From NCBI GenBank assembly GCA_036397255.1, contig DASWJH010000113.1:1-34645 (forward strand): 34,645 nucleotides of DNA, read 5' to 3'. Shown piece after piece: positions 5,112 to 28,431 of the stretch. The notes below the pieces were generated by a model. It was not told where the DNA came from. It saw only the letters and a list, made by a program, of their open reading frames with translations, and made no database searches. The translations under genes were made by a program, and so were the position numbers. The stretch comes from Nitrospiria bacterium (GTDB taxonomy: Bacteria; Nitrospirota; Nitrospiria; DASWJH01). Positions within the stretch are counted from its first letter, which is position 1. Each line of letters starts with the position of its first letter.

Positions 5112-5891
5112 TTATTTCCACCGATGCGCTTCGATTACCCGGTGGGTCAGAAAAAGGCCGACCGTTGCGAGGCTCAATAAATAAACAACATTTTTTGTAT
5201 CAATGAGCCCTTTTACAAAACTGCTAAAATGCTCCCCTACAGATAAAAAGGAGAGAATATCACCTAAAACCGAATTCCCTGCTCCCTGGGAGGCGATACC
5301 CATAAGCCATAGGAGGAGGGTAATTCCAAAGCCCACAAAACCTGCGATAATTTGATTTTCGGTGATGGAGGATGCAAATAACCCAACCGATAAGATGACT
5401 CCCCCTAATAAAAGAAGTCCCAGGTATCCGGCCAAAATAGGTTTCCATTGTAAATCCCCATAAATATTGATGAGAACGGGCATAAACCCGGTTAATAACA
5501 GCATCAAAGAAAATACAGAAAAAGCGGCAAGGAATTTTCCAAAGATAATCTCAAGGATAGAGATGGGGGAAGTAAATAATAATTCCACTGTTTTGGTCTT
5601 TTTCTCTTCCGCCAGGAGTCGCATGGTCAGCAGGGGTAAGGTGAAGAGAATGACAATGGCCATGTTGTGAAACGCTGGCCGGAAAACCAACTCAATGACA
5701 TTAATTTCTGGAAGAGCTCCTTGAAGACGCATTAGCTGCATACTTTGGCTGGAAGCAAAAAGAACGATTTGGGAGAAAAGAAACCCGCTGATTAAAAGGA
5801 AAACCGAAATCACTACATAGGCCATGGGTGAGGTGAAATAAATCCGCAATTCTTTACTGGTAATGGCGAGCACATTGTTTACCTTTTTCAT
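5112..5891 (-). CDS. ABC-2 type transporter permease, GldF-like
   Basis: The 259-residue integral membrane subunit of the ABC exporter. About six hydrophobic helices are visible. Family hallmarks are the N-terminal 'KELRIYFTSPMAYVVISVF' and the cytoplasmic loop 'LLAEEKKTKTVELLFTSPIS', both typical of ABC-2 permeases of the GldF/NosY type. It should dimerise in the inner membrane and be driven by the ATPase encoded immediately upstream on the same strand (18 bp gap). An AGGAGG sequence just after the ATPase stop is the likely ribosome binding site, about 13 bases before the ATG. The substrate is unknown. The length is normal for the family and no frame problems are seen. Confidence 0.9.
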   Translation of the reverse strand: MKKVNNVLAITSKELRIYFTSPMAYVVISVFLLISGFLFSQIVLFASSQSMQLMRLQGALPEINVIELVFRPAFHNMAIVILFTLPLLTMRLLAEEKKTKTVELLFTSPISILEIIFGKFLAAFSVFSLMLLLTGFMPVLINIYGDLQWKPILAGYLGLLLLGGVILSVGLFASSITENQIIAGFVGFGITLLLWLMGIASQGAGNSVLGDILSFLSVGEHFSSFVKGLIDTKNVVYLLSLATVGLFLTHRVIEAHRWK

Positions 5892-9536: not shown

Positions 9537-10292
9537 ATGTCGCTCATACGAACCGAGGGGATAGTTTTACGGAATAAAACGTTGGGAGAATCCGATCGAT
9601 TGGTACACCTGTTTACCTTGACCCATGGAAAGTTGAAGGGGGTTGCAAAAGGGGCCAGACGGCCAAAAAATCGGTTTGGAAGTGCTTTGGAACCTATTAC
9701 CCATGCGAGCCTTTTTTTATTTGAACGGCGAACCGGAGGTCTTTTCCAAATCCAAGAAGCCGAAATCATCCGCTCCTTTCAGGCCTTAAGGGAAGATCTT
9801 AATACCATTTTTTATGCAAGCCATTTTTTAAGATGGATCGAGGCCTTTCTTCCCGAGGGAGAATCTCGACCCACCTGTTTTCATCTCCTGAGGGAGTTTT
9901 TATCCCTGCTCGGTGAGGTGAAGGATGTTGAAAGTTTGGCCCGGTGTTTTGAAATTAAGGTTTTGGATTTATCAGGGTTTCGACCCCGGTTAGATGTTTG
10001 CGGTGATTGTGGGAAAACCTTGGAAAGAAAAAAGATTTACTTTTCTTTTTTAGAGGGAAGGGGGTTGTGCAACAATTGCGGATCTCAGGAAAACCGTTTT
10101 CATTCCTTCCTGTCTCCGGGGACCGTTGCTTCCGTCCATCAAATTCTAACTCTTTATCCGAACAAGGTGAGCCGTTTGCATTTAAATGTTTTGATGAAGA
10201 AGGAACTTGGGAAAATGACCCGTGATTATGCCAAACATTTGTTGGGAAAAGAAATTGGAACAGAGCAGATGCTTTGTCACTCCTTTGGTTGA
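9537..10292 (+). CDS. recO: DNA repair protein RecO
   Basis: RecO helps load RecA onto SSB-coated single-stranded DNA in the RecFOR recombination pathway. The 251-residue protein opens with the characteristic OB-fold start 'TEGIVLRNKTLGESDRLVHL' (6-25) and 'GKLKGVAKGARRPKNRFGSA' (31-50). It has a helical middle and a zinc-binding segment with Cys155, Cys158, Cys178 and Cys181 in two CxxC pairs. Length matches the family (about 240-260). It follows mgtE by 14 bp and closes the era-mgtE-recO cluster. The C-terminus after residue 190 is a typical helical tail. Confidence 0.95.
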   Translation: MSLIRTEGIVLRNKTLGESDRLVHLFTLTHGKLKGVAKGARRPKNRFGSALEPITHASLFLFERRTGGLFQIQEAEIIRSFQALREDLNTIFYASHFLRWIEAFLPEGESRPTCFHLLREFLSLLGEVKDVESLARCFEIKVLDLSGFRPRLDVCGDCGKTLERKKIYFSFLEGRGLCNNCGSQENRFHSFLSPGTVASVHQILTLYPNKVSRLHLNVLMKKELGKMTRDYAKHLLGKEIGTEQMLCHSFG

Positions 10293-15332: not shown

Positions 15333-16376
15333 ATGGAAATGAAATTATCTGACATTGCGGATGCGGTAGAGGGAACCCTAAAGGGGGATGGAAATATCCT
15401 CATCAAAGGAATTGCCGGGCTTCGGGAAGCCCGGGAAGGGGATATTAGTTTTTTAGCCAATCAAAAATACCTTTCGGAATTAAAGAGTACCCATGCATCT
15501 GCCGTTTTGGTTCCAATGGGGATTGAAAAGCCCTTCCCATCGCTTTCGAGCATTCAAGTTCAAAATCCCTACTATGCGTTTAGCCTGGTTCTTCGAGCTT
15601 TTTACGGTAAACCCTATCGTCCCACAGGAATCAGCTCGCAAGCAGTGTTGGGGGAAGGGGTGACAATTGGGAAGGATCCTTCCATCGGGCCTTTTGTGAC
15701 CCTAGGAAAGGGAACCCGTTTGGGGGACCGGGTAACGGTTCATGCAGGTTCTTTTGTGGGTGAAGACACCGAAATCGGGGATGATTGCTTGATATACCCC
15801 AATGTGACAATTCGCGAACGGGCAGTATTGGGTAAAAGAGTGATTATCCATAGTGGAACCGTTATTGGGAGTGACGGTTTTGGATATGCCGAACATAAGG
15901 GCCAGCACCACAAAATCCTTCAGGTTGGAAATGTCATCATCGAAGATGATGTGGAGTTAGGAGCCAATGTGGCCATTGATCGGGCTGCTCTTGGAAGGAC
16001 GGTTATTGGACGAGGAACCAAGGTGGATAACTTGGTTCAAATTGCTCATAATGTTAGAATTGGTCAACACTGCCTGTTGGTTGCCCAGGTGGGTATTTCT
16101 GGAAGTACGGAGCTAGGAAACTATGTGACCCTTGCGGGGCAAGTGGGGGTGGTAGGACATATTCGGATTGGTGATCAAGTCATTATTGGTGCGCAGTCCG
16201 GTGTGATTAAGGATGTTTCTTCCAAGAAAATGATGTCTGGGTCTCCTGTGATGGACCATCGAGAATGGTTAAAGGCACAAGCTGTTTTTTCAATGCTGCC
16301 CGAAATGAAGAAAAAACTTTTGAGTCTTGAAAAACAGGTAAAGGAATTAAAGGAGATTCAGAAAAAAAAGGATTGA
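15333..16376 (+). CDS. lpxD: UDP-3-O-(3-hydroxyacyl)glucosamine N-acyltransferase LpxD
   Basis: LpxD transfers the second 3-hydroxyacyl chain from acyl-ACP to the 2-amino group of UDP-3-O-acyl-GlcN, the third step of lipid A synthesis, in the cytoplasm. The 347-residue protein has the uridine-binding N-terminal domain (about 1-100, with '[15 protein letters not shown]'). A left-handed beta-helix of hexapeptide repeats follows (about 105-300), then a C-terminal helical tail rich in Lys and Glu. The catalytic His is His239 in 'QIAHNVRIG', matching the E. coli position. Length is typical (about 340). An in-frame ATG at 15339 is an alternative start; no strong Shine-Dalgarno is visible. FabZ follows after 125 bp. 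Confidence 0.96.
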
Positions 16377-16501: not shown

Positions 16502-16939
16502 ATGATTGATATTCGAGAGATTCTATCTATTCTTCCCCACCGGTATCCCTTTCTTCTGGTCGATCGAATTCTTGAACTGGAAATAGGGAAACGCGTGGTG
16601 GGTTTTAAAAATGTAACTTTTAATGAGGAATATTTCCAAGGTCATTTTCCGGAAGAACCGGTGATGCCGGGGGTTTTGATCATTGAGGCCATGGCCCAGG
16701 TGGGAGGGATCTTGGCATTTAAATCCAGTGAGGAAATAAAACGGAAGGTCGTGTATTTTGCAGGCATTGATAAAGCCAAATTTAGAAAGCCGGTGGTCCC
16801 GGGGGATCAGCTTCGAATGGAGCTGGACGTCCTTCATGTGAGACAGCCCTTTTGGAAAATGAAGGGTACAAGTTATGTGGAAAAGAGTTTGGTTTGCGAG
16901 GCGGAATTGACCGCCATGATTTCTGAAAGGAAAAATTAG
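16502..16939 (+). CDS. fabZ: 3-hydroxyacyl-[acyl-carrier-protein] dehydratase FabZ
   Basis: FabZ dehydrates 3-hydroxyacyl-ACP in fatty acid elongation and so competes with LpxA and LpxD for the 3-hydroxyacyl-ACP pool; clustering with lpx genes reflects this. The 145-residue hot-dog-fold protein shows 'LPHRYPFLLVDR' (11-22), the active-site segment 'GHFPEEPVMPGVLIIEAMAQ' with His48 and Glu62, and 'KFRKPVVPGDQL'. Start ATG 16502 has GAGGA at about 16489-16494. The gene sits between lpxD and lpxA, as in many Gram-negative genomes. All catalytic residues are present and the length is normal. Confidence 0.96.
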   Translation: MIDIREILSILPHRYPFLLVDRILELEIGKRVVGFKNVTFNEEYFQGHFPEEPVMPGVLIIEAMAQVGGILAFKSSEEIKRKVVYFAGIDKAKFRKPVVPGDQLRMELDVLHVRQPFWKMKGTSYVEKSLVCEAELTAMISERKN

Positions 16940-16980: not shown

Positions 16981-17754
16981 TTGGAAATACATCCAACCGC
17001 AATCGTTAATCCCAAAGCTGAAATTGCCGAAGATGTCAGTATTGGCCCCTTTTCGGTTATTGAAGAAAACGTTCAAATCGGGCGAGGCAGTAAAATTGGA
17101 ACCCACGTGGTGATCGAAAATGGTTCCGAAATCGGAGAGGGTTGTACTTTTTTCCCCTTCTCTTCCATTGGAGGGGTTCCTCAAGACCTCAAATTCAAAG
17201 GCGAAGATTCTAAAGTGAGAATTGGGAACGGAAACACGTTTCGGGAATATGTCACTGTTAACCGGGCCACGCTTGAAGGAAGTGGGGAGACGGTTATTGG
17301 AAATGGAAACTTTTTTATGGCTTATGTCCATATTGCCCATGATTGCCGAATTGGAAACCATGTCATCATGGCCAATGCGGCTACCTTAGCAGGCCACATT
17401 TCCATTGAGGACTTTGCCATCATTGGGGGCTTGGTAGGGATTCATCAATTCGTGCGAATTGGTGCCTATGCCATGGTGGGAGGATGTTCCGCCATCGGGC
17501 AAGATATCCCCCCTTTTATGACGGCCTCGGGAATCCGGGCTTCCCTGTTTGGGTTAAATTCCCTGGGTTTAAAACGGCACGGGTTTTCCGAAGAGAGAAT
17601 TGCCGTGTTAAAAAAAGCCTATAAAATTCTCTTTCGTTTAAAACTGACACTCAAGGAGGCAGTCAAAAAAGTACGGGATGAGGTGGAGTCTACACCGGAC
17701 GTGGAGGCCCTGCTTCTTTTTATAGAAAACTCAAAAAGGGGGGTTTGCAGATGA
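16981..17754 (+). CDS. lpxA: UDP-N-acetylglucosamine O-acyltransferase LpxA
   Basis: LpxA catalyses the first lipid A step, acylating the 3-position of UDP-GlcNAc (or UDP-GlcNAc3N in some lineages) from 3-hydroxyacyl-ACP. The 257-residue protein is a hexapeptide-repeat left-handed beta-helix (1-185) with a helical C-terminus, close to the E. coli length of 262. The catalytic base is His120 in 'HIAHDCRIG' (E. coli His125). The acyl-length ruler position corresponding to E. coli Gly173 is also Gly (Gly168, in 'MVGGCS'), which suggests capacity for a long, C14-like hydroxyacyl chain. The start is TTG 16981 with AGGAG about 10 bases upstream; the protein then begins in the expected 'IHPTAIVNP'. 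lpxI follows by 39 bp. Confidence 0.96.
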   Translation: MEIHPTAIVNPKAEIAEDVSIGPFSVIEENVQIGRGSKIGTHVVIENGSEIGEGCTFFPFSSIGGVPQDLKFKGEDSKVRIGNGNTFREYVTVNRATLEGSGETVIGNGNFFMAYVHIAHDCRIGNHVIMANAATLAGHISIEDFAIIGGLVGIHQFVRIGAYAMVGGCSAIGQDIPPFMTASGIRASLFGLNSLGLKRHGFSEERIAVLKKAYKILFRLKLTLKEAVKKVRDEVESTPDVEALLLFIENSKRGVCR

Positions 17755-17793: not shown

Positions 17794-18606
17794 ATGGAGA
17801 GAATAGGCCTAATTGCAGGAAATGGAAGGTTTCCCCTTCTTTTTGCCCAGGGGGCTCGTAACCAATCTGTGAGTGTGACAGCGGTGGCCCACGTGGGAGA
17901 AACCCTTCCTGAATTAAGTGAATGGGTTGATAAAATTTTCTGGATTCGGGTAGGCCAGTTAGGAAAAATGATCAAAATTTTTAAGGCGGAAGGGGTAAAA
18001 GAGGTGGTGATGGCCGGGGGAATTAAAAAAACCCGTTTGTTTGCGGATGCCTGGCCGGATATTCGTTCTCTGACTCTTTTAGCAAAAGTTAAAGAGAAAA
18101 AAGACGATGCTTTACTCCGCGCGGTGGCCGGAGAATTGGAACGGGAGGGGATTAAGGTTTTGGAATCTACCCTTTATTTGAAATCCCTTTTGGCCCAAAA
18201 AGGAGTTATGACCAAACGAAAACCAACTACCCAGGAATTGGAGGATATCCGTTTCGGTTGGTCTCTGGCACGAGAAATCGGCCGGCTGGATATTGGACAA
18301 TGTTTGGTTGTAAAAAATAAGGTGGTGCTGGCAGTGGAAGCCATAGAAGGGACTGATGAGACCATCAAACGGGCAGGTCGGCTTGGAAAAGAGGGGGTTG
18401 TGGTTATTAAAATGTGTAAACCCCAACAGGATTTCCGTTTTGATATCCCTGCAGTGGGAATTGAAACCATTCGTGCCATGGGGGAGGTAAAAGCCTCCGT
18501 GCTGGCATTGGAGGCGGGACGGTCAATTTTGCTGGATAAGGACGAAACACTGGACCTTGCCAATCAAAAGGGAATTTCGGTTTTTGGAGTGGAGGAAACG
18601 GACTAA
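17794..18606 (+). CDS. lpxI: UDP-2,3-diacylglucosamine pyrophosphatase LpxI
   Basis: LpxI hydrolyses UDP-2,3-diacylglucosamine to lipid X and UMP and replaces LpxH in lineages such as alphaproteobacteria and several deeper diderm phyla. The 270-residue protein (formerly DUF1009) shows the N-terminal 'IGLIAGNGRFPLLFAQGARN' segment. It also has 'VMAGGIKKTRLFADAWPDI', and the C-terminal catalytic-domain pattern Asp213-x-Arg-x-Asp217-x-Pro followed by 'VGIETIRAM'. Length is typical (about 270-280). It sits directly between lpxA and the oxidoreductase-lpxB pair, giving the complete order lpxD-fabZ-lpxA-lpxI-lpxB. No clear Shine-Dalgarno precedes ATG 17794. Confidence 0.94.
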   Translation: MERIGLIAGNGRFPLLFAQGARNQSVSVTAVAHVGETLPELSEWVDKIFWIRVGQLGKMIKIFKAEGVKEVVMAGGIKKTRLFADAWPDIRSLTLLAKVKEKKDDALLRAVAGELEREGIKVLESTLYLKSLLAQKGVMTKRKPTTQELEDIRFGWSLAREIGRLDIGQCLVVKNKVVLAVEAIEGTDETIKRAGRLGKEGVVVIKMCKPQQDFRFDIPAVGIETIRAMGEVKASVLALEAGRSILLDKDETLDLANQKGISVFGVEETD

Positions 18607-18607
18607 T

Positions 18608-19540
18608 ATGAAACCAATTCGAGTGGGCGTAATCGGAGTGGGTTATTTAGGAGAACACCATGCCAGGATTTATTCAGAAATGGATGGGGTGGAACTGGTC
18701 GCCGTGGTGGATCCCAATGAAGAGAGAGCCCGGGAAATTGGAAAGAAATTGGGTTACCCGTTTTATACGAAACATCAAGAAATTTTAAATGCCGTCGATG
18801 CCGTGAGTATTGCCGCTCCCACTTCCTTTCATCATGACCTTTCGATTGATTTTCTCAAAAACAATGTGGATGTTTTGTTGGAAAAACCGATGACGGTCAC
18901 TCTGGAGGAGGCGGACCGTCTGGTACAAGAAGCCGAGCAAAATAAAAGAATTCTTCAAATTGGACATTTGGAACGCTTTAATGGGGCCATTCGAAAATTA
19001 AAGGAGGTCGTCAAAGACCCCCGTTTTGTGGAATCCCACCGCATCGGCCCTTTTGTCAATCGGGGAACCGATGTAGATGTAATTTTGGATCTGATGATCC
19101 ATGATATCGATATCCTATTAAGTATTGTTCAATCCAAGGTCAGTGATATCCGTGCAGTGGGGACTCCGGTGATTTCCTCCAATGTGGATATTGCCAATGC
19201 CAGGATTGAGTTTGAGGGAGGTTGTGTTGCCAATGTGACGGCCAGCCGTGTTTCCCTTAAAAAAGAACGTAAGATTAGAATTTTCCAGCCCGACACGTAT
19301 ATTTCTCTTGATTATCAGCTTCAGGAATTAAGGGTTTACCGCCGTGTCATGGACCCGGAGAAAGGGCCACAGATCATGATGGAAAAGATAGGAACCGCAA
19401 AAGACGAACCTCTTCGGGTTGAGTTAGAAGCCTTTATTCATTCGGTTCGAAGCAGAGACCAGCCGGTGATTTCCGGCCGGGATGGCCGGGAAGCCCTAAA
19501 GGTCGCTTTAAATATTATTTCACTAATGCGTGGATCATGA
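18608..19540 (+). CDS. Gfo/Idh/MocA-family oxidoreductase in lipid A operon (GnnA-like)
   Basis: A 310-residue NAD(P)-dependent oxidoreductase. The Rossmann fold begins at once ('IRVGVIGVGYLGEHHARIY', 4-22). The family Glu-Lys-Pro motif is at 92-94, and the active-site 'MIHDIDILLSI' contains His165-Asp166. I chose ATG 18608, just after the lpxI stop and downstream of GGAGG (18591-18595). The longer frame from 18557 overlaps lpxI and adds a tail before the Rossmann start. In Acidithiobacillus ferrooxidans, GnnA of this family oxidises the 3-OH of UDP-GlcNAc and GnnB aminates it, with both genes near lpxA. Position suggests a related role here, but no aminotransferase is present in the window, so oxidation of a UDP-sugar without transamination, or a partner elsewhere, must be considered. 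Confidence 0.85.
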   Translation: MKPIRVGVIGVGYLGEHHARIYSEMDGVELVAVVDPNEERAREIGKKLGYPFYTKHQEILNAVDAVSIAAPTSFHHDLSIDFLKNNVDVLLEKPMTVTLEEADRLVQEAEQNKRILQIGHLERFNGAIRKLKEVVKDPRFVESHRIGPFVNRGTDVDVILDLMIHDIDILLSIVQSKVSDIRAVGTPVISSNVDIANARIEFEGGCVANVTASRVSLKKERKIRIFQPDTYISLDYQLQELRVYRRVMDPEKGPQIMMEKIGTAKDEPLRVELEAFIHSVRSRDQPVISGRDGREALKVALNIISLMRGS

Positions 19541-19543
19541 ACC

Positions 19544-20677
19544 ATGCCCAAACGTATCCTAATGGTGGCTGGGGAATCCTCCGGGGACCTGCATGGCGCC
19601 CATTTGGCCACCGCTCTTTGGAAATTGGATCCTACCCTGGAAATAATGGGGGTTGGGGGAGATCGGATGCGATGCGCAGGGGTGAGAATTCTTTATGGGA
19701 TTGAAGACCTTGGTGTGGTTGGTGTCATTGAAGTTTTTTCCCATCTGAAAATCATTGCCAAAGTTTATTGGATGCTGAAACGGCTTCTTCAAAATAAGGA
19801 AGCCGACCTTTTAATTTTAATCGATTACCCTGATTTTAACCTTCGGCTTGCACGGGTCTCAAAACGTTTTAAAATTAAGACGATTTATTACATCAGTCCC
19901 CAAATATGGGCGTGGCGCAGGGGAAGGATTAAGGTCATTAAGCGTTTGGTCAGTCATATGATGGTCATTCTCCCGTTTGAAAAGAAAATATATGAAGAGG
20001 CCGCAGTTCCATGCAGTTTCGTAGGGCATCCTTTGTTAGATGAGATTCCGGTTGATTTTGACCGGAAAGGATTTTGTACCCGGCATGGGATTGACCCCAA
20101 TCAACCGATTTTGGGAATTCTTCCGGGAAGCCGGCGGTCCGAAATAGGTGCTCACATGCCTGTTTTGCTAAAAACACTACCTCAGATTCAGAAAAGGGTT
20201 TCGAATCTTCAGGTTATTATTGCAAGGGCCCCTTCCCTCCGGGAGGAAGATTTCAAAAATTGGAAAACCGCAGAGTCTCAAAGGATACATTGGGTATCGG
20301 GTGAAACGACAGAAGTGCTCAAGGCCTCTGATGCGGTGATTACCGCTTCCGGGACGGCCACCCTTCAGGCTGCTATTTGCGGGGCCCCGATGGTGATCAT
20401 TTACCGTGTTTCTCCCTGGACCTATTTTTTGGGTCGGATGTTAGTGAGGGTTAATTTTATTGGGATGGTCAATGTGGTGGCCGGGAAAAAGATCGTCCCT
20501 GAATTTATACAAAATGAAGTCACTCCGGATCGAATCGTGGAGGCGATTTGTCCGATCCTTTTGGATTCCAATCTTCGGGATAAAATACGAAAGGAATTAA
20601 ATTCCGTGCGTGAAACCCTTGGGACTCCCGGTGCCTCGGTTCGGGCCGCAGAAATTGTCAAAGGGTACCTCAATTAA
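19544..20677 (+). CDS. lpxB: Lipid-A-disaccharide synthase LpxB
   Basis: LpxB (glycosyltransferase family 19) condenses lipid X with UDP-2,3-diacylglucosamine to give the beta-1,6-linked disaccharide, working at the inner face of the cytoplasmic membrane. The 377-residue protein has 'AGESSGDLHGAHLATAL' (9-25), 'LIDYPDFNLRLA', 'YYISPQIWAWRRGRI', 'FVGHPLLDE', 'LPGSRRSEI' near 191 and 'TASGTATLQAAICGAPMVIIYR', all family hallmarks. Length matches E. coli LpxB (382). It starts 3 bp after the oxidoreductase stop, so translation is probably coupled. msbA follows after 57 bp. Confidence 0.96.
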   Translation: MPKRILMVAGESSGDLHGAHLATALWKLDPTLEIMGVGGDRMRCAGVRILYGIEDLGVVGVIEVFSHLKIIAKVYWMLKRLLQNKEADLLILIDYPDFNLRLARVSKRFKIKTIYYISPQIWAWRRGRIKVIKRLVSHMMVILPFEKKIYEEAAVPCSFVGHPLLDEIPVDFDRKGFCTRHGIDPNQPILGILPGSRRSEIGAHMPVLLKTLPQIQKRVSNLQVIIARAPSLREEDFKNWKTAESQRIHWVSGETTEVLKASDAVITASGTATLQAAICGAPMVIIYRVSPWTYFLGRMLVRVNFIGMVNVVAGKKIVPEFIQNEVTPDRIVEAICPILLDSNLRDKIRKELNSVRETLGTPGASVRAAEIVKGYLN

Positions 20678-20734: not shown

Positions 20735-22483
20735 ATGAAAATCTATTTAAGATTGCTTAGGTACCTTAAGCCTTATTGGCCACGCTTGGTGGTTGCCATT
20801 ATATTGGCCAGTTTTGTTTCCTCTCTTACAGGAATCCTTGCGTGGCTAGTGGAGCCCGTGTTGGATAAAATTTTCGCCCAAAAAGATACCCAAATGCTTT
20901 TTATGCTTACCTCCGCTATTTTTCTGGTTACTTTTTTAAAAGGACTTTTTAGTTATGGTCAGGCCTATTTTATGCGATATGTAGGAAACCGGGTTCTCAT
21001 GGACCTTCGAAATGAAATTTTCGGTCACACGCTTTCCCTTCCTTTAGGTTTTTTTACGAAATATTCCACCGGAAGATTAATGTCCAGAGTAATTAATGAC
21101 GTGACCTTGATCCAAAGCGCGGTTTCCGGAGTGGTCAAAGATATTTTCCAACACACCCTCACTGTGTTTGTCCTTCTTGGGGTCATGATTTATCAGGATT
21201 GGAAATTAACCCTATTGGCCTTATTTGGGTTTCCCCTATCCAGTTACCTTTTGGTTCGGTTTGGAAAAAGATTGCGACGCTTAAGTCACCTGGGTCAAGA
21301 AAATATTTCAGATTTAACCAATCTTTTACAAGAGTCCCTCAGCGGAATTCGGGTGGTGAAGGCCTTCACCATGGATGATTATGAGCGAAAACGTTTTAAA
21401 GAAAAAAACCTTTCCTATTTCAGAAACTTGATGAGGGTGACCAAGATTCAAGAGTTAACCTCGCCCTTGATGGAGGTTATTGGTTCCCTGGGCCTTGCCT
21501 TAATGGTCGGTTACGGGGGTTATTATGTTATCCAGGGAAATATAACTCAAGGAACCTTTTTTTCCTTTATGGCTGCCTCTATGATGATGTATGCCCCCGT
21601 GAGAACATTAGCTTCGGCCAATAATATGATTCAACAGGCCATTGCGGCAAGCCAACGGGTATTTTCCGTTTTGGATGAGGATACGGAGCAGAGTTTTTCG
21701 ACCGGAACTCACATCTTCGGATCTGTACGCGGCGCCGTTGAATATAAAGGCGTTTCTTTCCATTATGAGGGAAGTGATCTGGCGACCTTAAAGGATGTCT
21801 GGGTTAGGGCCCAGCCCGGAGAGATCGTTGCTTTGGTGGGCAGTAGTGGAAGTGGGAAAACCACTCTGGTCAACTTACTTCCTCGGTTTTTTGAACCCAC
21901 CGCGGGAGAAATTATAATTGACAACATCAAAATTCAGGATGCGACTTTGACCTCTTTGAGACAACAAATTGGAATTGTGAGTCAGGAAACCGTGCTCTTT
22001 GATGATACGGTGGTTAACAATATTAGTTATGGGGAACAGGGGGTCAAGGAGGAAGCCGTTATACAGGCCGCTCAAGCGGCTTTTGCTCACCCTTTTATTA
22101 GTCGTTTGCCGCAAGGGTACGAAACCATGATTGGGGAGCGGGGGGTAAAACTTTCAGGGGGTGAACGGCAGCGTTTGGCCATTGCCAGAGCCCTACTTCG
22201 AAATGCTCCCATTCTGATTTTGGACGAAGCAACCTCGGCCCTGGACAGTGAATCGGAATTAATGGTGCAGCAGGCTTTGGTCAACCTCATGAAAAATAGA
22301 ACCACCTTTGTCATCGCCCACCGCCTTTCTACCATTAAAAACGCAACCCAGATCCTGGTCCTGGATCACGGGCAGATTGTTGAACGGGGGTCTCATGATG
22401 AGCTTCTCCAAAGGGGCGGTGTTTATAAACGGCTTTACCAAGTTCAATTTCGGGAAGAGGAAAATTATGCGGAAAATCTCTGA
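20735..22483 (+). CDS. msbA: Lipid A export ATP-binding/permease protein MsbA
   Basis: MsbA is the homodimeric ABC exporter that flips core-lipid A across the inner membrane. The 582-residue half-transporter has an N-terminal six-helix domain (about 1-320) and a C-terminal nucleotide-binding domain. Walker A 'GSSGSGKTT' is at about 369-377, the signature 'LSGGERQRLAIARAL' precedes Walker B 'ILILDEATSALD' (catalytic Glu near 498), and the switch His lies in 'VIAHRLSTI'. Length equals E. coli MsbA (582). Similarity to other type IV half exporters is strong, but the location between lpxB and waaA/lpxK supports MsbA. Its 3' end overlaps the start of the DUF374 acyltransferase gene by 17 bp. Confidence 0.93.
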   Translation: MKIYLRLLRYLKPYWPRLVVAIILASFVSSLTGILAWLVEPVLDKIFAQKDTQMLFMLTSAIFLVTFLKGLFSYGQAYFMRYVGNRVLMDLRNEIFGHTLSLPLGFFTKYSTGRLMSRVINDVTLIQSAVSGVVKDIFQHTLTVFVLLGVMIYQDWKLTLLALFGFPLSSYLLVRFGKRLRRLSHLGQENISDLTNLLQESLSGIRVVKAFTMDDYERKRFKEKNLSYFRNLMRVTKIQELTSPLMEVIGSLGLALMVGYGGYYVIQGNITQGTFFSFMAASMMMYAPVRTLASANNMIQQAIAASQRVFSVLDEDTEQSFSTGTHIFGSVRGAVEYKGVSFHYEGSDLATLKDVWVRAQPGEIVALVGSSGSGKTTLVNLLPRFFEPTAGEIIIDNIKIQDATLTSLRQQIGIVSQETVLFDDTVVNNISYGEQGVKEEAVIQAAQAAFAHPFISRLPQGYETMIGERGVKLSGGERQRLAIARALLRNAPILILDEATSALDSESELMVQQALVNLMKNRTTFVIAHRLSTIKNATQILVLDHGQIVERGSHDELLQRGGVYKRLYQVQFREEENYAENL

Positions 22484-23203: not shown

Positions 23204-24547
23204 ATGGATGTGAAAGGTCCCGAACCGTTAGAGCAAACCCTATATTTTTTATATAACCTCCTCCTTCTGCTTTTTCTCCCGTTTGCTTTTGGAATCCTTT
23301 CCTGGCGTTGGGTGGTTCAGCCATCCTACCGAAAAGGGATATGGGAGCGATTTGGAATCCACCCCAAGGATATTGGAAAAAAGGAAAAAGGGGAGCGGCT
23401 TTTTTGGATTCATGCTGTTTCGGTTGGGGAGGTATTGGCCTCCGTTCCGCTGATTCATGCCATTAGGAAAAAATTTCCAAAAGACCGTTTGATTTTGTCA
23501 ACCGTCACGGTTACGGGCCAGGAAATTGCGCTGCAAAAAATTCCAGAAGTGGATCGGATGATATATTGTCCTTTTGATTTTCCTTGGGCGGTCCAGCGTG
23601 TTGTGGAAATTCTTCGCCCCAATTTATTTATATTCTTAGAAACGGAGCTTTGGCCTAATTTACTTCGTTGTTTAAAAAAGAAAGGGGTTGCATCCTTGAT
23701 GGTGAATGGGAGAATCTCACCCGGCTCGTTTAGGAATTATCGATGGGCCCGTGTGTTTTTCCGGAGGGTGTTGGGGCAGGTCTCTACCTTTTCTGTTCAA
23801 ACAGAGCGGGACGCTAGGTTCTTGCAAGAACTAGGAGCAGACCCCCTTACCATTGAATGTATGGGGAATATGAAGTATGATCAATCTTTTAAGGTGTTTG
23901 GGGAAGATGAATTAAATTCCCTCCGACAAAATCTGGGAATTGAGAAAAAAACCATGGTTTTTGTCGTTGGTAGCACCCATGAAAAAGAAGAAGCATCCCT
24001 CCTAGACCAATTCGGGGAAATGGTTTCCCGATGGGGTTCCTTTGTAATGATTTTGGCCCCTAGACATCTGGATAGACTTCCATCCATTGAAACTCTCTTG
24101 GAACAGAGAAAGATTCCCTATTTTCGGAAGACGGATTTGCTGGCATTAAGGAGAAAAGGCGACCCCGGATTAGGCAAAACCGGGGTAATCCTTTTGGATA
24201 CGTTGGGTGAGTTATCAAGCTATTATCGGTTAGCCACGGTGGTTTTTGTGGGGGGAAGTCTGGTTCCCATTGGGGGTCATAATATTCTGGAACCTGCCGC
24301 TTATGGGAAATTTAGTTACTTCGGTCCGTATATGCATAATTTTTCCGAAATCAGTTGTTTAATGAAAGAGCGAGGTGGGGGGGTTGAAGTGGAGAACGTG
24401 AAGGAATTGGTGGAAAAAATAGAAACGATTTTAAAAAAACCTGCCGAGTTGGAGCGTCGAGGAAGGGAGGCATTTAAAGTGGTGGAAGAAAACCGCGGTG
24501 CGGTGGAAAAAAATATGAAATTGATCGAGAAATTTATAACCCCGTGA
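23204..24547 (+). CDS. waaA: 3-deoxy-D-manno-octulosonic acid transferase WaaA (KdtA)
   Basis: WaaA (glycosyltransferase family 30) transfers Kdo from CMP-Kdo to lipid IVA at the inner membrane. The 447-residue protein has an N-terminal membrane anchor (about 14-32), then 'FWIHAVSVGEVLASVPLI' (67-84) with the catalytic Glu76 in Ser-Val-Gly-Glu. Further marks are 'LETELWPNLL' (145-154), 'NGRISPGSFRNYRW', 'MGNMKYD', 'VVGSTHEKEE' and 'GGHNILEPAAYGK', as expected. Length is near the usual 420-440. Whether it adds one, two or more Kdo units cannot be read from the sequence. It follows the DUF374 gene by 75 bp and precedes lpxK by 10 bp. Confidence 0.95.
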   Translation: MDVKGPEPLEQTLYFLYNLLLLLFLPFAFGILSWRWVVQPSYRKGIWERFGIHPKDIGKKEKGERLFWIHAVSVGEVLASVPLIHAIRKKFPKDRLILSTVTVTGQEIALQKIPEVDRMIYCPFDFPWAVQRVVEILRPNLFIFLETELWPNLLRCLKKKGVASLMVNGRISPGSFRNYRWARVFFRRVLGQVSTFSVQTERDARFLQELGADPLTIECMGNMKYDQSFKVFGEDELNSLRQNLGIEKKTMVFVVGSTHEKEEASLLDQFGEMVSRWGSFVMILAPRHLDRLPSIETLLEQRKIPYFRKTDLLALRRKGDPGLGKTGVILLDTLGELSSYYRLATVVFVGGSLVPIGGHNILEPAAYGKFSYFGPYMHNFSEISCLMKERGGGVEVENVKELVEKIETILKKPAELERRGREAFKVVEENRGAVEKNMKLIEKFITP

Positions 24548-24557
24548 GTTTGAGGGA

Positions 24558-25652
24558 ATGGAACCGTGGCTTGGAAAGGGAAAAAGGATTGCGAACTGGG
24601 GTCCTGGGGCCAAAAATATTTTATTTTTTCCATTAACCCTTTTATCATTTGTTTTTTTAATGGCCGTGTTCCTCAGGGTTTTCCTGTACCGTGCAGGAAT
24701 TTTCACTACGCAAAAACTCAACTGTAAGGTGGTCAGTGTTGGCAATTTAACTGTTGGAGGTACCGGGAAAACTCCCTTGATATTGGCAATGGCCAAACAA
24801 TTTCGTGATTTGGGAGAACGGGTTGTGGTCATCAGCAGGGGATATAAAGGAAGAAAAAAGGAAAAAATAACGATTGCCTCTCAAGGCGATGGGCCTCTGG
24901 TTTCCTGGGAAGAAGTGGGTGAAGAACCTTTTTTATTGGCCGACCGATGCGAGGGGGTTCCTGTCTTGGTGGGAAAAAACCGTTATGAGGTGGGGCGGTT
25001 TGCTTTGGAAAATTTTCGACCCACGGTTATTCTTTTGGATGATGGTTTTCAGCATCTAAAGCTTTTTCGGGATTTAAATGTTCTTTTGATTGATTGCACC
25101 GCTCCCTTCGGAAATGGTTATCTTCTTCCCCGGGGTCCACTCAGGGAACCTTTATCCCATATCAAAAGGGCATCCGCCATTGTTTTTAGCCGTGTGAGCC
25201 AATCAAAAAACCTACAACAGATAAAACAAAAAATTGAACCTTGGATTGAGGAGAAACCTGTTTTTCATTTAAATTTTTTTCCGATGGGTTTTGTTTCTAT
25301 CGGAACCAAAAAGGAAGAGGACCTTACCCTGGTGAAGGGGAAAAAAATTTTGGCCGTTTCCGGAATCGGAAATCCTTTTAATTTTCACCAAACCCTTTTG
25401 AAATTAGGTCCCCAAGAGGTTTTAGAAAAAGTATTTCCGGATCATTATTTTTATTCCCGTCGGGATTTTAAAAAAATACTGGATGCCGGTAAAGGGATGG
25501 ATTGTATTATTACGACCGAGAAAGATGGGGTTAAGCTCGAACGTTTTCTTGGGAAGGGATCTTCCTTATGGGCCTTGAGGATCGAGGGAAGAATTACGGA
25601 AGGAGAGGAATGGATGGATTTTCTAACCAAAAACAATCACGGTTTTGAATAG
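24558..25652 (+). CDS. lpxK: Tetraacyldisaccharide 4'-kinase LpxK
   Basis: LpxK phosphorylates the 4'-position of the tetraacyl disaccharide to form lipid IVA. The 364-residue monotopic membrane P-loop kinase has an N-terminal hydrophobic helix (about 20-45), then 'VVSVGNLTVGGTGKTPL' with Walker A 'GGTGKT' (67-72). 'ISRGYKGR' and 'GEEPFLLADR' follow, then 'LLDDGFQHLKLFRDL' (159-173), all LpxK signatures. 'DHYFYSRRDF' and 'TTEKDGVKL' in the C-terminal half are also typical. Length is in the usual range (330-360). It starts 10 bp after waaA, and lpxL begins 7 bp after its stop. Confidence 0.95.
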   Translation: MEPWLGKGKRIANWGPGAKNILFFPLTLLSFVFLMAVFLRVFLYRAGIFTTQKLNCKVVSVGNLTVGGTGKTPLILAMAKQFRDLGERVVVISRGYKGRKKEKITIASQGDGPLVSWEEVGEEPFLLADRCEGVPVLVGKNRYEVGRFALENFRPTVILLDDGFQHLKLFRDLNVLLIDCTAPFGNGYLLPRGPLREPLSHIKRASAIVFSRVSQSKNLQQIKQKIEPWIEEKPVFHLNFFPMGFVSIGTKKEEDLTLVKGKKILAVSGIGNPFNFHQTLLKLGPQEVLEKVFPDHYFYSRRDFKKILDAGKGMDCIITTEKDGVKLERFLGKGSSLWALRIEGRITEGEEWMDFLTKNNHGFE

Positions 25653-26703: not shown

Positions 26704-28431
26704 ATGATTAACCGAGAATCTATCCAAAAGATATTAATTCGAGGAACCAATTGGATTGGAGATTCGGTTCTGGCTTCCCCTGCCATTACCGCCATAGGGA
26801 AACATTTTGAAAAGGCAGAAATAACCTTGCTGGCAAAGCCTCACGTAGGGGACCTCCTTTCACGGCATCCTTTTATCCACCATCATTTGCATTTTGAAGA
26901 TCAGGGGAAGCATCGTGGCTTTTTGGGAAAAAGAAAATTAATCCATGAGATTAAGGAAAAATCTTTTGATATGTTGATTCTTTTTCAAAATTCCTTTGAA
27001 AGTGCCCTTTTGGGGTTTTTTTCAAAAATTCCCATACGTTATGGGTATCGCACCGATGGAAGAAGATTTTTACTGACCCATCCCATTCCCGTTCCCAGAG
27101 ATTTATTGAAAAAACACCATATTTATTATTACCTGGAGCTTCTAAAACCATTAAACATCAAAAGTGAACCATCCCTGACCCTTGAAACCTCTAAAGAAGA
27201 GGATGAGTGGGCCGATGAGCAACTCCAATCATTGGGTGGGTCCGAAGAAAATATATGGATCGGTTTTAATCCGGGGGCAGCCTATGGGACGGCCAAGCGG
27301 TGGCCCATGGAGCGTTTTTCTGAACTTGGAAGAAAATTGGTTCAGGGATATCCTGCAAAAGTTCTTCTTTTTGGGACCCAGGAGGAGGAAATTCTCGGAA
27401 AAAAGATTGCAGAGGGAATTCCAGGAAAGGCAGTGGTTTTGAATGGAAAAACCACCCTCCGCCAACTGATGGCCCTTTTAAAGAAGTGTGATTTATTGGT
27501 CACCAATGATTCTGGTCCAATGCATGTTGCTATGGGGCTGAAAGTTCCTGTGGTTGCCATATTTGGTTCAACCGATCCAAAAACAACCGGTCCTTTTGGA
27601 AGGGCGGGGATCGTCGTCAAACGAGAGGTGGTCTGCTCTCCCTGCCAACTTCGGGTGTGTCCCATTGATCATCGCTGTATGGAATGGGTTACTGTAGGCG
27701 AGGTTTTTACAGCGGCGGCGAAATGTTTGGAGGAAACCGGTTTTCCCCGATGGAAAACCTCTGTAAAAAATGAATCCTCCGTTGGGGCTAAAGGGAAACA
27801 GGTGACCGAGGTTGCGGTATTTTTGGACCGGGATGGAACTTTGAATAAGGACGTGGGGTATGTTGATCGCCGGGAGCGAATGGCTTTTTATCCAAGAAGT
27901 ATCGCCGCCATTCAATTGCTCAATCAGGCGGGAATCAAAGTATTGTTAGTCACCAACCAAGCGGGGGTTGCCCGCGGCATAATGACTGAAGCGGCGGTTC
28001 AAACCCTTCACCGGGAATTGGTGCGATTACTCAAGCGTAAAGGTGCTTTTTTGGATGGAATTTATTATTGTCCACATCACCCTGAGGCAGGAAACTCACC
28101 TTATACCCAGGTGTGTCAATGCCGAAAACCAGCTCCAGGTTTAATTGAAAAGGCCTCCCAAGAGCATGGAATAGACCTCCGGCGCTCCTATGTGGTGGGC
28201 GATAAGTGGAGTGATATGGAGTTGGCCCGACGGGTGGGGGCTAGGGGAATCCTGGTTTTAACCGGTGATGGGAATCAGGAGGTCCACCGTTGTATTCGAA
28301 ACGGGTCAAAAGCAGAGGTGGTGGTTCCTGATCTATATGAGGCGGTTCAATGGATTCTTAGAGACTTCTCTGCTGGGGGCCAAAGGGACATTAACCCCAC
28401 CAAAGTGACCGAACTGAATTTAAAAATTTGA
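26704..28431 (+). CDS. Fusion: heptosyltransferase II (WaaF) + D,D-heptose 1,7-bisphosphate phosphatase (GmhB)
   Basis: A 575-residue two-domain protein. Residues 1 to about 345 are a GT9 heptosyltransferase of WaaF type: 'ILIRGTNWIGDSVLASPAI', 'GFNPGAAYGTAKRWPMERF' and 'TNDSGPMHVAMGLKVPVVAI'. A linker (about 346-368) follows, then a HAD phosphatase like GmhB with Asp375-x-Asp377 in 'VFLDRDGTLNKDVGYVDR' and 'VTNQAGVARG'. Its zinc-loop ligands are Cys456, His458, Cys471 and Cys473, and it ends with 'VGDKWSDMELARRVGA'. GmhB dephosphorylates heptose bisphosphate during ADP-heptose synthesis and WaaF uses ADP-heptose to add the second core heptose, so one polypeptide links donor supply and use. 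The frame is continuous with no internal stop. A short AGG precedes ATG 26704. No other gmh genes are present in the window. Confidence 0.93.
   Translation: MINRESIQKILIRGTNWIGDSVLASPAITAIGKHFEKAEITLLAKPHVGDLLSRHPFIHHHLHFEDQGKHRGFLGKRKLIHEIKEKSFDMLILFQNSFESALLGFFSKIPIRYGYRTDGRRFLLTHPIPVPRDLLKKHHIYYYLELLKPLNIKSEPSLTLETSKEEDEWADEQLQSLGGSEENIWIGFNPGAAYGTAKRWPMERFSELGRKLVQGYPAKVLLFGTQEEEILGKKIAEGIPGKAVVLNGKTTLRQLMALLKKCDLLVTNDSGPMHVAMGLKVPVVAIFGSTDPKTTGPFGRAGIVVKREVVCSPCQLRVCPIDHRCMEWVTVGEVFTAAAKCLEETGFPRWKTSVKNESSVGAKGKQVTEVAVFLDRDGTLNKDVGYVDRRERMAFYPRSIAAIQLLNQAGIKVLLVTNQAGVARGIMTEAAVQTLHRELVRLLKRKGAFLDGIYYCPHHPEAGNSPYTQVCQCRKPAPGLIEKASQEHGIDLRRSYVVGDKWSDMELARRVGARGILVLTGDGNQEVHRCIRNGSKAEVVVPDLYEAVQWILRDFSAGGQRDINPTKVTELNLKI

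Follow-up and report, generated by a model that had tools for sequence, protein, structure and literature searches.

In Acidithiobacillus ferrooxidans, GnnA and GnnB produce UDP-GlcNAc3N, from which amide-linked lipid A is made. Another pair of enzymes, WbpB and WbpE, produces UDP-GlcNAc3NAcA for the O-antigen. The lipid A of Legionella pneumophila is listed as being of the diaminoglucose (GlcN3N) type, and so is that of Caulobacter, in the portion of PMC8036547 that was consulted. In Caulobacter, lpxI is located between lpxA and lpxB (excerpt of PMC3087551), and the separation of gnnA and gnnB in Mesorhizobium loti is already in print (excerpt of PMC5644692). Here, we describe a known enzyme, GnnA, encoded in a lipid A operon of the lpxI type, an arrangement that hides a transaminase probably encoded elsewhere.

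The lipid A operon and its oxidoreductase gene

The window (the whole 34.6-kb stretch of DNA that was analysed, contig C113) carries genes in the order bamA-like, ompH-like, lpxD, fabZ, lpxA, lpxI, gnnA, lpxB, msbA-like, waaA-like, lpxK, and lpxL-like, where the names bamA, ompH, and msbA were assigned by reading. The features considered are the following.

15333..16376, + strand: lpxD, above the NCBIfam cut-off
16502..16939, + strand: fabZ, above the NCBIfam cut-off
16981..17754, + strand: lpxA, first acyltransferase and predicted consumer of UDP-GlcNAc3N, above the NCBIfam cut-off, active-site His retained
17794..18606, + strand: lpxI, UDP-2,3-diacylglucosamine pyrophosphatase, directly 5′ of gnnA, both Pfam LpxI domains
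18608..19540, + strand: gnnA, predicted UDP-GlcNAc 3-dehydrogenase, 310 amino acids, intact from the ATG at 18608 to the stop codon ending at 19540
19544..20677, + strand: lpxB, lipid A disaccharide synthase, above the NCBIfam cut-off
20735..22483, + strand: MsbA-like ABC transporter (lipid A flippase), named by reading, the same gene being downstream at the class loci
23204..24547, + strand: waaA (Kdo transferase)-like, best NCBIfam score 370 bits (cut-off 438)
24558..25652, + strand: lpxK, above the NCBIfam cut-off

An earlier note on this DNA had placed a Gfo/Idh/MocA gene between lpxI and lpxB, and the open reading frame coordinates, the Pfam search, and the NCBIfam assignments of the neighbours confirmed it. 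The genes are tightly packed, with one base between the lpxI stop codon (ending at 18606) and gnnA, and three bases between gnnA and lpxB. Both Pfam domains of LpxI scored far over their cut-offs, and the NCBIfam LpxI score was 154, below the model cut-off of 400. Further along the window, at 26704-28431, a heptosyltransferase II-like domain is fused to a GmhB-like phosphatase domain.

The gnnA product consists of an N-terminal Rossmann domain and a C-terminal domain (Pfam GFO_IDH_MocA, 117 bits, and GFO_IDH_MocA_C3). Its best NCBIfam model is the archaeal UDP-GlcNAc 3-dehydrogenase model NF040723, to which it is not assigned because its score of 259.6 bits falls short of the curated cut-off of 450. 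Among solved structures, the protein is most similar to 7bvj (E 4.9e-57, 38% identity, full length with residues 4-303 covered), which we take to be A. ferrooxidans GnnA and whose record reads just "Oxidoreductase, NAD-binding". The predicted catalytic residues Lys93 (EKP) and His165 (MIHD) were retained in all 129 GnnA-family rows of the alignment. When 35 GnnA rows with an adjacent aminotransferase were compared with 55 rows with an adjacent LpxI, the 65 columns conserved at 90% or more in both groups were identical in every case, and the two groups are therefore taken to carry out the same reaction.

The GnnA-type identity proposed in the earlier note was supported by these residues and by the phylogeny against known GnnA that it had suggested. 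A tree with 134 rows placed the window enzyme among the 129 GnnA-family proteins, which were split from five WbpB-like proteins by a long branch (SH-aLRT 100); the tree was built by a quick method and A. ferrooxidans GnnA itself sits on a long branch. Judging from its sequence, the window gene very probably encodes a protein with GnnA activity.

A candidate aminotransferase on another contig

That the window holds no GnnB-like gene, as the earlier note had stated, also stood: a profile search of the contigs of this genome (3.35 Mb, 97.5% complete) produced no PF01041 match on contig C113, i.e., no DegT/DnrJ aminotransferase in the window. The genome search for a GnnB-type aminotransferase found one full-length DegT gene, on contig C18, and the reading taken from the window alone, that there is no partner, was rejected.

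Contig C18, 2722-3840, − strand: DegT-family aminotransferase, GnnB-like candidate partner, PF01041 370 bits

This is the single full-length DegT/DnrJ/EryC1 aminotransferase of the genome (the next best match scored 42.5 bits), and it carries the PLP-lysine motif SFFPSKNLGGAGDGG. The window GnnA is the sole strong Gfo/Idh/MocA protein of the genome (119.5 bits, next 28.3), and no WbpB-like dehydrogenase was found there at E ≤ 1e-50. The closest solved structures to the aminotransferase are 7b0d, QdtB, 2oga, 3uwc, 4qgr, and WbpE, of which QdtB, 2oga (DesV), and WbpE are presumably 3-aminotransferases. Its scores were below the cut-offs of PseC (224 vs. 423.5) and of the other 4-aminotransferase models.

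The gene ends a polysaccharide cluster that contains WecA-, WecB-, and PseB/FnlA-like genes. Because of this location the enzyme may serve a surface glycan, and this is the main ground for caution. In the aminotransferase tree it fell outside the clade of the GnnBs encoded beside gnnA, for which reason it is named here GnnB-like and not GnnB. It is found in the sister clade, together with the trans-encoded genes of both Legionellaceae genomes and with WbpE-like enzymes encoded beside WbpB-WbpD fusions; since the clade includes the latter, membership in it does not fix the substrate by phylogeny.

The partner search covered 27 genomes: this one, two with an aminotransferase adjacent to gnnA, and 24 without. 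A DegT gene with E ≤ 1e-70 to an operon GnnB was present in 22 of the 24 genomes with an unpartnered GnnA, both Legionellaceae among them; of the remaining two, G210 had only a weak DegT match and G213 (0.9 Mb) had none. The 22 genes were distributed in the tree as 19 in the sister clade, one in the operon-GnnB clade, and two with 7b0d and QdtB. A further comparison was made with 80 named loci taken from a collection scan by their similarity to 7bvj. An aminotransferase adjoined gnnA in 34 of them, lpxI in 10, and both in none (hypergeometric P 0.0025), an exclusion that we only remark upon because the loci share descent and were picked through 7bvj. One of these loci, an Ectothiorhodospiraceae contig (L113), has two lpxA genes, one at 5120 (+) and the other at 9963 (−). 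One of the two is beside gnnA and an aminotransferase and the other is beside fabZ/lpxB, which makes them a natural pair for the sugar choice of LpxA.

Distribution across the class and competing explanations

The survey comprised 185 genomes of the host class, each at least 90% complete, and gnnA was called at E ≤ 1e-50. The class is probably Nitrospiria of the Nitrospirota. The GnnAs of two named contigs, one from Nitrospirota (L138) and one from Candidatus Troglogloeales (L162), are identical to those of class members, and NCBI places Candidatus Troglogloeales in Nitrospiria. The gnnA gene was found in 171 of the 185 genomes, and lpxA-lpxI-gnnA-lpxB is the standard order in the class. We found no description of this layout in the open-access PMC literature, and we do not claim its absence from print. 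Since lpxI adjoins gnnA at 44 of the 45 class loci read, the position of gnnA in the lpx operon is not due to chance; at none of the 45 is an aminotransferase beside gnnA. A homolog of the C18 aminotransferase (E ≤ 1e-95) was present in 161/185 genomes and in 151/171 of those with gnnA (cross-counted by hand).

The cleanest case for the coupling of both genes is genus g21, where gnnA and the aminotransferase were found in 14/14 genomes, a WbpB-like gene (E ≤ 1e-50) in 0/14, and a single DegT gene in 12/14. The coupling is looser in genus g2 (gnnA in 53/53, the aminotransferase at E ≤ 1e-95 in 41/53). In three genomes (G110, G087, and G107), gnnA and a close aminotransferase homolog share one LPS cluster; the homolog is located about 14-17 kb downstream of gnnA, and the stretch that separates them has no WbpB-like gene. 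Several class members encode, next to a WbpE-like aminotransferase, a fusion of a WbpB-like dehydrogenase with a hexapeptide (WbpD-like) domain (e.g., L053 and L058, where the fusion is upstream of the aminotransferase).

These distributions bear on the possibility that GnnA and the C18 aminotransferase make UDP-GlcNAc3N(Ac) mainly for an O-antigen or core glycan, with the lipid A remaining glucosamine-based. The polysaccharide cluster around the C18 gene and the WbpB-WbpD fusions adjoining its sister enzymes point in that direction. However, gnnA is a neighbour of lpxI at nearly all class loci, and the neighbouring open reading frames scanned at three g21 aminotransferase loci held no sugar genes recognised by Pfam. 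We regard this explanation as unlikely.

Among the single-contig genomes of the class, gnnA and the C18-type homolog were both present in 17/17, and a WbpB-like dehydrogenase (E ≤ 1e-50) was missing from nine of the 17; in those nine, no source of a UDP-3-keto sugar other than GnnA is therefore recognised. The co-occurrence argues against a second explanation, in which the C18 enzyme makes an unrelated 4-amino sugar and GnnA pairs with some other, unrecognised aminotransferase. The PseB/FnlA-like dehydratase encoded in the C18 cluster (PseB score 307.7 bits, under the cut-off of 407.75) could provide the 4-keto substrate, and the existence of gnnA-positive genomes with no DegT match (see below) fits such a scheme. 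The low PseC score and the presence of QdtB, 2oga, and WbpE, besides 7b0d, among the closest solved relatives speak against it, and we consider it quite unlikely.

No DegT match at E ≤ 1e-30 was detected in five of the 171 gnnA-positive genomes (G009, G021, G089, G100, and G130), and the C18-type homolog (E ≤ 1e-95) was missing from 20 of the 171. In all five, gnnA stays in the operon, and in G021, G100, and G130 it is under purifying selection (pairwise dN/dS about 0.08-0.16, comparable with lpxB; dS was saturated for G009, and G089 lay outside the pairs). Incompleteness is a likely explanation for all five genomes, two of which, G021 (8 contigs) and G100, are rated 99% complete. Polysaccharide islands may be lost from draft assemblies, and as the aminotransferase is in every single-contig genome, its absence from drafts may reflect an assembly or binning gap. 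This possibility, together with the finding that not one conserved residue separates the LpxI-adjacent GnnAs from the aminotransferase-adjacent ones, makes it very unlikely that GnnA acts without a transaminase and generates a 3-keto or 3-epimeric sugar nucleotide (or epimerises while NAD stays bound), the product entering lipid A or regulating the pathway, as the constrained operon gnnA of the DegT-less genomes could suggest. That some Nitrospirota have GnnA with no transaminase at all, and an LpxA that acylates, or a pathway controlled by, such a UDP-sugar, is highly improbable; to our knowledge, a lipid A backbone originating from a 3-keto or 3-epimeric UDP-sugar has not yet been described.

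The earlier note had left two options, a partner elsewhere or a different reaction. The former is the better supported, by the single DegT gene on another contig, its class-wide co-occurrence with GnnA, and the fact that the same aminotransferase type is also the best match in most other genomes with an unpartnered GnnA. The option of a reaction without a transaminase is less supported, with the five DegT-less genomes keeping some room for it. We consider it quite probable, on the sequence comparisons above, that the C18 aminotransferase is the partner of the window GnnA.

The 14 class genomes without a gnnA match include five of family f5, seven that also have no lpxA match, and two with a cut or split gnnA (G140 and G033). 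Two of the five f5 genomes (G010 and G019) have aminotransferase matches at E ≤ 1e-95, which are of other subtypes. At the four f5 lpx loci read, a kinase-like open reading frame of about 227 amino acids occupies exactly the gnnA slot, flanked by lpxI and lpxB.

L183, 7546-8229, − strand: kinase-like open reading frame
L184, 2890-3570, + strand: kinase-like open reading frame
L185, 3403-4083, + strand: kinase-like open reading frame
L186, 7841-8524, − strand: kinase-like open reading frame

Their similarity to Ser/Thr kinase models, and for one of them also to a Kdo kinase, is weak.

The LpxA sequences were inspected at the column of E. coli His168. The window LpxA has Tyr, as in 3hsq, which we take to be L. 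interrogans LpxA, but also as in 4e6u, presumably the Acinetobacter enzyme (glucosamine lipid A). Nearly all gnnA-positive class rows covering the column have Tyr (the exceptions are L011, His, and L022, Phe), and the seven gnnA-less f5 rows have His. In L113, the gnnA-adjacent LpxA has Tyr and the second LpxA has His. The residue was rejected as a marker of sugar choice because 4e6u has Tyr, other gnnA-linked LpxAs (e.g., those of L099, L107, and L137) have His, and f5 is a single clade. In family f2, five LpxAs (L175, L177, L178, L179, and L181) have His in place of E. coli Asp74 and Gly in place of Lys76; other members, represented by partial rows, have Gln, His, or Asn at position 76.

Proposed pathway and comparison with known systems

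In the pathway that we favour, GnnA would use NAD+ to oxidise UDP-GlcNAc at C3, giving the 3-keto sugar, as expected from its family and residues, and the trans-encoded C18 aminotransferase would aminate C3 to form UDP-GlcNAc3N. LpxA would then acylate the 3-amine, and LpxI and LpxB would process the di-amide to a lipid A with amide-linked 3- and 3′-acyl chains. This reading as a whole, in which GnnA and a trans-encoded aminotransferase supply UDP-GlcNAc3N for amide-linked lipid A, is probably correct, and the lipid A of the organism is, with the same probability, predicted to be of the diaminoglucose type. Most likely, the window bacterium and its relatives would thus have an outer membrane lipid with tougher amide bonds.

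If this is true, amide-linked (diaminoglucose) lipid A is predicted from the genome alone for nearly the whole Nitrospirota class, with family f5 and its kinase-like gene in the gnnA slot as a natural contrast. The rule that the lack of gnnB beside gnnA means no GlcN3N would be wrong, and an operon slot annotated as "Gfo/Idh/MocA oxidoreductase" would find an explanation.

The system resembles GnnA/GnnB of A. ferrooxidans in the full-length homology, the catalytic Lys and His, the place among lpx genes, and the presence of a DegT aminotransferase in the genome. It differs in that no gnnB is beside gnnA, lpxI fills the slot before gnnA, and the aminotransferase is encoded on a different contig and belongs to the sister clade. 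WbpB/WbpE share the chemistry and the enzyme superfamilies, and WbpB-WbpD fusions do occur beside WbpE-like genes in class members; the WbpB-like proteins are set apart from GnnA by the long branch and are missing from this genome. Legionella is similar in that gnnA adjoins lpxB with no neighbouring gnnB (L070, L143, and L166) and that one DegT gene (E about 1e-85) is elsewhere in the genome, but its gnnA has no adjoining lpxI. The Caulobacter lpxI operon shares with the window the location of lpxI between lpxA and lpxB (excerpt of PMC3087551). As Caulobacter combines this operon with lipid A of the diaminoglucose type, according to the consulted portions of the two sources, LpxI appears to be compatible with such a backbone.
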